Shown here one piece after another: positions 23,149-25,523 of a stretch of DNA of 64,000 bases. The stretch lies in assembly GCF_022829545.1 (NCBI RefSeq), contig NZ_JAKSYM010000321.1, positions 62,001 to 126,000 of the forward strand, in the 5' to 3' direction. The position numbers and the translations under genes were made by a program. Below the pieces are notes generated by a model that was not told where the DNA came from, made no database searches, and saw only the letters and a program-made list of their open reading frames with translations. This DNA is from Methylobacterium sp. J-030. GTDB taxonomy: Bacteria; Pseudomonadota; Alphaproteobacteria; Rhizobiales; Beijerinckiaceae. Positions within the stretch are counted from its first letter, which is position 1. Each line of letters begins with the position of its first letter.

Positions 23149-24174
23149 ATGAGTTCAGGAACCCCATCGCACTTGGACGCCGGGCAGGCCGGCAACGGTC
23201 ACGCGGGCGGCGACGACGCCGTGCTGCCCTTCGCCGTGGAGGCGCTGGACGTGCGCGGCCGCGTCGTCCGGCTCGGCCCCGCCGTGGACACGATCCTGCG
23301 CCGGCACGGCTATCCGGATCCGGTAGCGCGGCTGCTCGGCGAGGCGGCGGCGCTCACGGTTCTGCTCGGCTCCTCCCTCAAGTTCGAGGGCCGGTTCCAG
23401 CTCCAGACCAAGACCGACGGGCCGGTGGCGATGATCGTGGTCGATTTCGAGGCGCCGGATCGCCTGCGCGCCACCGCGCGCTTCGAACCTGAGCGCGTCA
23501 CCGCCCTCGGCTCCGGCCCGCTCAAGGATGCCGACCTGATCGGCACCGGGCACCTCGCCATGACCATCGACCAGGGCCCCGCGGCCAGCCGCTACCAGGG
23601 CGTGGTGGCGCTGGAAGGCCAGAGCCTGGAGGAGGCCGCGCACCAGTATTTCCGCCAGTCCGAGCAGATCCCCACGCAGGTCCGCCTCGCGGTCGCCGAG
23701 GCCGTGGAGGAGGGGGCCGGGCACTGGCGGGCCGGTGGCTTGGTCGTGCAGTTCCTGCCCCAGTCGATCGACCGCGCCCGCCTCGCCGACCTTCCGCCGG
23801 GCGACATCCCGGAGGGGCACGCCCATCTCTCGGACGCGGCGCCCGAGGACGATGCCTGGGTGGAGGCGCGCTCCCTCGTCGCCACGATCGAGGATCACGA
23901 GCTGGTTGATCCCAACGTGTCGAGCGAGCGCCTGCTGTACCGGCTGTTCCACGAGCGCGGCGTGCGGGTGTTCGACCGCCAGCCCGTGCATGAGACCTGC
24001 CGCTGCTCCCGCGAGCGGGTGTTGGGCATGATCCGCTCCTTCACGCCGCAGGAACGGCGCGACATGGTGGCGGATGACGGACGGATCGTCATCACCTGCG
24101 AGTTCTGTTCGCGGCGCTATGACCTCGATCCCGAAGCGGTCGAGGCCGAGATCGCGGAGCAGCCGAAGCAGTAG
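23149..24174 (+). CDS. hslO: redox-regulated molecular chaperone Hsp33
   Basis: A cytoplasmic holdase chaperone that is switched on by oxidation. The 341-aa protein has the N-terminal Hsp33 domain (ALTVLLGSSLKFEGRFQLQT, GPVAMIVVDFEAPDRLRATA) and the linker. The C-terminal zinc centre has four cysteines, CRC (in HETCRCSRERV) and CEFC (in ITCEFCSRRYDLDPE). Its Cys-X-Cys and Cys-X2-Cys pairs are the redox switch. The ATG at 23149 follows GGAGAGG. The residues before LPFAVEALDVRGR are a Gly/Ala-rich extension. It is the third gene of the argD-argF-hslO set. Confidence 0.93.
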   Translation: MSSGTPSHLDAGQAGNGHAGGDDAVLPFAVEALDVRGRVVRLGPAVDTILRRHGYPDPVARLLGEAAALTVLLGSSLKFEGRFQLQTKTDGPVAMIVVDFEAPDRLRATARFEPERVTALGSGPLKDADLIGTGHLAMTIDQGPAASRYQGVVALEGQSLEEAAHQYFRQSEQIPTQVRLAVAEAVEEGAGHWRAGGLVVQFLPQSIDRARLADLPPGDIPEGHAHLSDAAPEDDAWVEARSLVATIEDHELVDPNVSSERLLYRLFHERGVRVFDRQPVHETCRCSRERVLGMIRSFTPQERRDMVADDGRIVITCEFCSRRYDLDPEAVEAEIAEQPKQ

Positions 24175-24344
24175 AAGTCGACACAGCAACCCGCTGGACA
24201 GCTTCTCATCGCGGCTTCACGGCCAAGCTTTGCTCGCGAAACGCAGGAATATCGGTATTCGTTGCGTGAATTTTTCAGGGGTCTGAGCAGAACTGTTTCC
24301 GGATCTTCGACGTTGCGTGCCCGATTCAACATTGGAGGAACGCC

Positions 24345-25523
24345 ATGCGGAGATTGTCGATCGGTTTGGCCGCGCTGCTGATGAGCACCTCGGTCTACGC
24401 GCAGCAAGGCGGCGCCGAGCGCGGAGCCGGGATGGCCGGTCGCGGTGGCCAGAACGGCACCGAGTCGGGCATGAAGGCCGGCGGCGAGCGCGGCGGCATG
24501 CAGGGTCGCCAGAAGGGCAGCCCGGCGACCGCCGACCGGAATGCTGGCCCTGGGCGGGCGGATCAGGACCGGAACGCCGGGGGCGCGGACCGGATGGCGC
24601 AGGATCGTGACCAGGGCAACCGTGCCGGCGCCGCGCGCCAAGACCGCGACAATGCCCGCGCGACCGACCGCAACGCCCGCGACGGCGCCCGGGCCGAGCG
24701 TGGCGACCGCCGGGGCGAGCATGTCGACGTTCGCGACCGCACCGACGTCAGCAGCCGGACCGACACGCGTCACGACCGGGTCGAGGGCGGTTTCCGGCGC
24801 GAAGGCCGCTACGTCTTCATCGGCGGGCAGCGGGTTGTGTACGGCTCCCCCGAGTACCGCCGGCTGATCGTCACCGAGACCCGCGGTCCGCGCGAGCGCT
24901 ACGTCGTGATCCGTGGCCAGCGCGTCCTCTACGGCTCGCCGGACTATCGCCGCCTCGTCAGCGTCCGCGAGACCGGCCCGCGCGAGCGCTACGTGGTGAT
25001 CCGCGGACAGCGCGTTCTGTACGGCTCGCCCGAGTACCGTCGCCTCGTGTCGGTGCAGGAGGATCGCTTCGTGACGATCCGCGGCCAGCGGGTCCGTTAC
25101 GGGTCCGCCGAGTATCGTCGCCTCAGCGGCGGCGGCACGGTCGACGCCAGCTTCCACGCGGAGCAGCGCGCCGGCGCCCGGTTCGACAAGCATGGCGACC
25201 GGGACGGAATCCGCAACGTCTCGCGCAACGAGGACCGCGACAACGGCCGCAATGCCGGCAAGATGGACCGCGGGATGGAGCGCAATGCCGGGCGCGACGG
25301 TCGGAATGACGGCATGCGCAACGGCGACATGCGCGGCAACCAGCAGGCCGGTATCCGCAACGCGTCCGACCGCGGCAACGGGCAGGGCGGCATGAAGTCC
25401 GGCGCCGAGGGCGGCCGGATGGGTGGCGGCGAGCGCAGTGGCGCGCCGGGCAGCGCCAAGGGCGGTGGCGCCATGGGCGGCGGCCGGACCGGCGGCGGAG
25501 AACCGGGTGCCGGGCGCAACTGA
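24345..25523 (+). CDS. secreted protein with four 30-residue GQRVxYGSPEYRRL repeats and low-complexity flanks
   Basis: No known family recognised. The 392-aa product begins with a signal peptide (MRRLSIGLAALLMSTSVYAQ) and a TTGGAGGAAC ribosome binding site precedes it. Residues 21-150 are Gly/Arg/Asp/Asn-rich and highly charged. Residues 155-260 hold four repeats of the pattern RYVVIRGQRVLYGSPEYRRL, spaced 30, 30 and 26 residues apart. Residues 261-392 return to Gly/Arg/Asn/Met-rich sequence. It would be exported and mostly disordered around a repeat core. The flanks contain no cysteine, and their alternating charge suggests a matrix, polyelectrolyte or surface role, but nothing proves one. 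A perfect hairpin follows the gene. Confidence 0.75.
   Translation: MRRLSIGLAALLMSTSVYAQQGGAERGAGMAGRGGQNGTESGMKAGGERGGMQGRQKGSPATADRNAGPGRADQDRNAGGADRMAQDRDQGNRAGAARQDRDNARATDRNARDGARAERGDRRGEHVDVRDRTDVSSRTDTRHDRVEGGFRREGRYVFIGGQRVVYGSPEYRRLIVTETRGPRERYVVIRGQRVLYGSPDYRRLVSVRETGPRERYVVIRGQRVLYGSPEYRRLVSVQEDRFVTIRGQRVRYGSAEYRRLSGGGTVDASFHAEQRAGARFDKHGDRDGIRNVSRNEDRDNGRNAGKMDRGMERNAGRDGRNDGMRNGDMRGNQQAGIRNASDRGNGQGGMKSGAEGGRMGGGERSGAPGSAKGGGAMGGGRTGGGEPGAGRN
24807..25124 (+). repeat. tandem coding repeat, four units of about 90 bp
   Basis: Four in-frame direct repeats inside the secreted protein gene. Units two and three are nearly identical in protein (RERYVVIRGQRVLYGSP-D/E-YRRLVSV) but differ at many third codon positions. 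Unit one (RYVFIGGQRVVYGSPEYRRL) and unit four (RFVTIRGQRVRYGSAEYRRL) are more diverged. Synonymous differences argue for an old duplication kept by selection rather than a recent slippage event. Confidence 0.85.

Follow-up and report, generated by a model that had tools for sequence, protein, structure and literature searches.

The repeat-protein gene found in the window (the whole analysed stretch of 64,000 nucleotides from Methylobacterium sp. J-030) encodes a strongly basic protein in which, at the level of sequence, a constrained domain of tandem units is placed between two arms constrained mainly in composition. In our preferred interpretation, which is plausible and still tentative, the product would be a polycationic envelope protein of the Methylobacterium group that resembles hydrophilins, is induced by stress and exported, and grips anionic envelope polymers with its repeats. 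Two findings go beyond the earlier note on this DNA: the gene is preceded by a conserved sigma-EcfG-type promoter, which hints at the general stress response, and the family is restricted to one genus group in the genomes sampled.

Organization and constraint of the repeat protein

From its N-terminus, the protein consists of a putative signal peptide followed by a Gly/Arg-rich arm, then the repeat domain of 115 residues, and finally the other arm (coordinates refer to the window):

24334–24338, forward strand: ribosome-binding site GGAGG, read from the sequence and kept as gGagG in the upstream alignment
24345–25523, forward strand: repeat-protein gene, ATG start, 392 amino acids, single copy in the genome
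24345–24401, forward strand: putative signal peptide, residues 1–19, predicted cleavage VYA/Q, read from sequence and conservation
24402–24785, forward strand: N-terminal Gly/Arg-rich arm, predicted disordered
24786–25130, forward strand: repeat domain, residues 148–262, delimited by alignment, with four predicted beta-beta-alpha units
24807–24866, forward strand: unit 1, RYVFIGGQRVVYGSPEYRRL, starting at residue 155
24897–24956, forward strand: unit 2, RYVVIRGQRVLYGSPDYRRL, starting at residue 185
24987–25046, forward strand: unit 3, RYVVIRGQRVLYGSPEYRRL, starting at residue 215
25065–25124, forward strand: unit 4, RFVTIRGQRVRYGSAEYRRL, starting at residue 241
25131–25520, forward strand: C-terminal Gly/Arg/Asn-rich arm, predicted disordered

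The start of the protein, MRRLSIGLAALLMSTSVYA/Q, resembles a Sec-type signal peptide with a cleavage site read by eye from the sequence, and relatives keep the pattern GLAALL[LMF]STSV[YF]AQ in this region. The earlier note had taken the protein as exported; the conserved signal-peptide-like start speaks for this, with export itself standing as a prediction.

All four units follow the pattern RYVxIxGQRVxYGSPEYRRL and are spaced by 30, 30 and 26 residues, so that the "four 30-residue repeats" described previously are right in number and, given the last spacing, slightly idealised in length. Units 2 and 3 are indeed nearly identical in protein with many silent differences, as had been noticed: 1 of 20 residues differs and 8 codons differ silently, and over 28 codons third positions hold 14 of the 19 base differences. 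Repeat number varies within the family, with three units in 18 of 31 distinct mature proteins, four in 12, and two recognised in one. Units keep their positional identity across species, which rules out a recent tandem duplication: unit 1 differs by a mean of 1.2 amino acids from unit 1 of other genomes and by 4.0 from unit 2 of the same genome. For units 2 and 3, the differences amount to 1.0 amino acids and 7.1 nucleotides within a genome and to 1.5 amino acids and 8.5 nucleotides between genomes, and since these two units are so close, some exchange between them is possible. In this comparison 15 of 24 proteins were usable, nine proteins with four detected units were included, and nine of the 24 were left out due to an unrecognised signal pattern or start.

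Of the 14 relatives aligned over their full length, six were compared with the window, giving repeat-domain dN/dS values of 0.08, 0.09, 0.08, 0.13, 0.15 and 0.36, the last one coming from a three-unit protein set against the four-unit window protein, where units are hard to register. The proposal that selection acts on the repeat is thus borne out by values of 0.08–0.15 in five of the six comparisons, together with the silent differences between units 2 and 3. In the same comparisons, dN/dS reached 0.29–0.77 in the N-terminal and 0.33–0.97 in the C-terminal arm, while arm lengths (131–165 and 126–144 residues, respectively, with the N-terminal count of one locus, L017, including one unrecognised unit) and positive charge are kept.

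The mature window protein has a net charge of +25, of which the repeat domain alone holds +15. It contains no Cys, while Gly makes up 20% and Arg 18.5% of its residues. Among the 31 distinct mature proteins, drawn from 53 loci of which the rest are duplicates or have no recognised signal pattern, net charge ranges from +22 to +30, Gly from 17.4 to 26.3% and hydrophilicity from 0.96 to 1.51, and Cys is absent from all 31. Repeat-domain charge lies between +12 and +18 across the family, the value of +8 in one row reflecting a unit unrecognised there.

With regard to known domains, the repeat family is firmly undescribed in the protein-family libraries searched, in agreement with the statement of the earlier note; Pfam, NCBIfam, PHROGs, PADLOC and PDB sequence searches returned no credible relative. 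The window protein gave only two Pfam matches (E 0.21 and 0.7) and one NCBIfam match (E 0.1), all below cut-off, no PADLOC match, and a best PHROGs E of 0.019, taken as chance. The best PDB sequence match of the domain profile had an E of 0.74, likewise taken as chance, and the unit profile, a search proposed in the earlier note, found no PDB sequence match up to E 10. No plasmid record matched the repeat domain. When 24 family members were scanned against Pfam, the best matches were to an MMTV superantigen (1.2e-5), DUF1330 (4.2e-5) and others; since such unlikely families as a mouse-virus superantigen match there, E of about 1e-5 was taken as the noise floor, and the weak matches, those of the window protein being below curated cut-offs, were rejected as compositional chance. 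In the literature searched, with most subscription papers outside its scope, no paper was found containing the string YGSPEYRRL, pointing to the repeat protein, or dealing with metal-free beta-beta-alpha repeats.

Structure prediction of the repeat region, also proposed earlier, suggests with modest confidence four beta-beta-alpha units between disordered arms. A strand-strand-helix order repeated four times appears in both AlphaFold models, one of the repeat domain alone (24 sequences, mean pLDDT 49.7) and one of the full-length protein (15 sequences), in which pLDDT is 63–81 in the blocks of residues 151–260 and 51 in block 261–270. The arms, at 33–46 (residues 21–150) and 34–44 (271–392) per 10-residue block, are predicted disordered, which agrees with the strong charge and partial disorder expected previously. 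The full-length five-model mean pLDDT is 35.7–48.5, and the pattern given here comes from the best-scoring model.

Such a topology could also mean that the units form a tandem array resembling C2H2 zinc fingers in shape, without metal and with a period of about 28 residues, and that this array attaches to nucleic acid such as extracellular DNA. The predicted helices carry Arg, Cys is absent throughout, and the top two Foldseek rows are tandem zinc-finger chains; their E values are, however, 1.1 and 1.2, none of the 168 Foldseek matches falls below 0.001, and a second structure aligner placed none of 211 chains at Z of at least 2. As 653 of 1000 shuffles score as high as the unit against the designed protein FSD-1, sequence likeness to the latter is ruled out, and we find the array improbable. 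True zinc fingers are ruled out, because no Cys is present in the 31 proteins and no His in the four window units.

Alternatively, the protein could be a distant relative of DUF1236 (PF06823) in which the last hairpin was amplified three to four times, working as DUF1236 envelope proteins do. The unit profile aligns with DUF1236 with hairpins in register (the last-hairpin pattern being Y-x-x-V-N-x-x-x-V-x-V-x-P-x-x-R-x-I-V-x-V) at a score of 17.64. None of 200 column shuffles and, in a later set, one of 1000 scored as high, the family having been picked post hoc. Furthermore, both kinds of protein look exported, one DUF1236 protein of the same genome (L056) has, as the repeat protein does, a long arm that is rich in Gly and contains Arg, and, according to PMC8909678, aluminium induces a Rhizobium DUF1236 gene. 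On the other hand, hmmscan does not list DUF1236 for the window protein up to E 10 or for 24 family members up to E 1, hhalign gives the unit a probability of 27% over 13 columns, and AlphaFold predicts a helix after the hairpin. Since the family was chosen post hoc and the Pfam profile found no match, the protein was not filed under DUF1236; we treat a relationship between the unit and the last DUF1236 hairpin as only a lead, and the reading as a whole as doubtful.

The same genome holds five DUF1236 matches (L054–L058). On its contig C103, a putative EcfG-type sigma ORF (L125) with a NepR-like N-terminus is followed at a short distance by one DUF1236 gene (L054) in the same orientation.

Upstream elements and predicted stress control

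Two conserved elements precede the gene:

24290–24314, forward strand: predicted sigma-EcfG-type promoter, GAAC at 24290–24293, 17-bp spacer, CGTT at 24311–24314
24220–24230, forward strand: conserved upstream element CGGCCAAGCTT, pattern [ACGT]GG[CT]CAAG[CT]T

The 48 loci with a recognised start were reduced to 34 distinct upstream regions, which are related and do not represent independent tests of what is a short motif (median pairwise identity over a 100-bp block 44 of 100; 23 regions left when no pair reaches 75). AAC-N17-CGTT is present in 33 of the 34; the exception, L030, has GGAAC-N16-CGTT, with a 16-bp spacer, at another position. The consensus of M. extorquens sigma-EcfG promoters, given as GAAC-N16,17-C/GGTT in PMC4814048, fits 30 of the 34 regions, compared with 0.51 expected from shuffles, and the four off consensus read AAAC instead of GAAC. 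Around the promoter the alignment reads gAACc.TTT....ac.t.cgaCGTTtcG, where the invariance of AAC and CGTT follows from the anchoring of the alignment, and that of TTT was not imposed. The AAC lies 54–57 bp before the ATG, with the earlier ATG taken for seven starts of MKTxxMGL type. Columns from 45 to 9 bp upstream of it hold 0–0.5 bits and the two columns just before it 0.7–0.8.

The element is also kept at loci lacking hslO, the usual upstream neighbour: among the 15 distinct upstream regions obtained from 18 such loci, 13 fit the published M. extorquens consensus, and so do all 12 distinct regions from loci without hslO, GNAT, argE and apaG nearby. For this reason the promoter element appears to travel with the gene and not with hslO. 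The base preceding GAAC in the window is A, and the GGAAC form of other alphaproteobacteria has G there; a stricter promoter pattern found no match in the own genome, since the window copy reads GAACTG. The genome itself has seven matches to the NepR model, five of them above cut-off, and one match sits in an ORF that, on our reading, encodes a sigma factor of EcfG type extended by a NepR-like part. Taken as a footprint conserved in sequence, the EcfG-type promoter is firm, and control of the gene by sigma-EcfG, hence by the general stress response, is predicted from it.

The second element, [ACGT]GG[CT]CAAG[CT]T, occurs in 22 of the 34 distinct regions against 0.18 expected from shuffles, at 71–77 bp before the promoter AAC in 16, at 53–55 bp in five and at 177 bp in one, and it is present also at some loci without hslO. 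It is no genome-wide repeat, as the genome holds six exact copies compared with 11 of a reversed-pattern control, and it is possibly an activator site. A second AAAC-N17-CGTT stretch was observed at 24239–24263 of the window, 51 bp upstream of the main promoter element; L002, L031, L038 and L040, each with a distinct upstream region, also have one.

The earlier note considered a matrix, cell-surface or polyanion-binding role. Put more fully, the protein would be a structural component of the matrix or surface, an adhesin or an organiser of polysaccharide, and would attach to exopolysaccharide or DNA through its basic repeats, its stress control being incidental. The signal peptide, the charge of the three to four repeats and the predicted disordered arms would suit such a protein, but conservation of the EcfG-type promoter speaks for a role under stress, no sorting or anchoring signal and no secretion signal other than Sec was noticed in passing, and we regard a purely structural function as unlikely.

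Distribution and gene neighbourhood

Among 61 genomes sampled as relatives, the gene was found in 33 of 37 genomes of the genus (own included) and in none of 24 from the rest of the order. Such a spread of relatives excludes a chance ORF, and conservation among them together with the low dN/dS of the repeats likewise rules out a non-coding one; the long antisense ORF at 24117–25193 is regarded as a probable side effect of high GC. A scan of contigs gave 23 loci, 22 from Methylobacterium/Methylorubrum and one from a Beijerinckiaceae MAG; with 94% identity over the repeat domain, these matches assign the organism of the window to this group. In wider samples, the sets being overlapping, matches came from 2 of 150 genomes of the order and 2 of 385 of the class, all in the genus, and from 26 of 298 of the family at E 0.01, comprising 21 of the genus and five weak ones; four further genus genomes were listed there without a match. 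The two largest searches scored no more than 15 and 11 candidates in each genome, so that distant relatives could be missed. The five weak matches in other genera (E 0.0054–0.0096) were judged false, the ORFs being long, without the unit, and read as molybdenum-hydroxylase large subunits. In the genomes sampled, the family is thus firmly confined, as judged from sequence matches, to the Methylobacterium/Methylorubrum group plus the one MAG.

Nine genomes of the genus had a missing, split or weak match. All nine possess hslO, and in none was a unit-bearing ORF seen within 1.5 kb downstream of it. Seven of them, all distinct, have no family match at all, so the general stress response can do without this gene.

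In the window, neighbouring genes match HSP33, a GNAT acetyltransferase, an M20 peptidase and ApaG. A functional link with hslO is weakened, because no more than 35 of the 53 loci have this gene as upstream neighbour (tblastn). The neighbours bear on the further idea of an antimicrobial or toxic cationic protein secreted against competitors: a strong positive charge and a signal peptide would be expected of such a product, but this set of neighbours, among which no immunity gene was noticed in passing, and the commonness of the gene in the genus make it highly improbable.

Proposed role and comparison with known systems

According to the preferred reading, that of a stress-induced envelope protein, the PhyR-NepR switch would free sigma-EcfG, which would transcribe the gene from its GAAC-N17-CGTT promoter, and the protein would leave the cytoplasm via Sec. 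In the periplasm, at the outer surface or in the matrix, the row of beta-beta-alpha units, small, basic and three or four in number, with a net charge of about +12 to +18, could dock on anionic polymers. The two long Gly/Arg-rich disordered arms might form a hydrated brush, so that less collapse and aggregation would occur under osmotic, solvent or drying stress. Both the docking partner and the protective effect are what we infer from these properties.

Methylobacteria live on leaf surfaces, where they are exposed to drying, heat and light, and many of the proteins made in their general stress response are, as far as known, still unnamed. The protein could be one likely envelope effector of that response, with a clear promoter, a conserved repeat and non-pathogenic laboratory relatives amenable to its deletion. 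For M. extorquens, PMC4814048 reports stress sensitivity of an ecfG1 ecfG2 double mutant and, in a quintuple ecfG mutant, sensitivity to methylglyoxal, salt and ethanol; a drying phenotype was not found in that text, where the word "desiccation" has no occurrence.

A bolder version, which we consider rather unlikely, is that the repeats constitute a new fold family: Cys-free tandem beta-beta-alpha modules of one genus group, exported under a stress sigma factor and gripping anionic envelope or matrix polymers, with cationic disordered arms hydrating the envelope. If true, this would be an exported counterpart of the cytoplasmic hydrophilins.

The hydrophilins are a class defined by composition, with Gly over 6% and GRAVY under -1, criteria described as insufficient in PMC4190154 itself. 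Gly exceeds 6% in all 31 distinct mature proteins; GRAVY is -1.30 for the window protein and clearly under -1 in 29 of the 31, with one at -1.00 after rounding and one at -0.96. The repeat protein resembles hydrophilins in its Gly content of 17–26%, hydrophilicity of about 1.3, long predicted-disordered regions and predicted stress control, and differs from them in its constrained, probably folded repeat domain, its signal peptide and its strong cationic charge. With the DUF1236 proteins of Hyphomicrobiales it shares a signal-peptide-like start, a similar-looking hairpin pattern and, in one case, a Gly-rich arm, while the tandem units, the predicted helix after the hairpin and the lack of a model match set it apart. 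C2H2 zinc-finger arrays and the metal-free designed FSD-1 (1fsd) are like it in the beta-beta-alpha topology predicted for its units and in a similar period, yet the repeat protein has no metal ligands and no significant fold or sequence match to them. Finally, likeness to the sigma-EcfG (PhyR-NepR) regulon of M. extorquens lies in promoter consensus and spacing.
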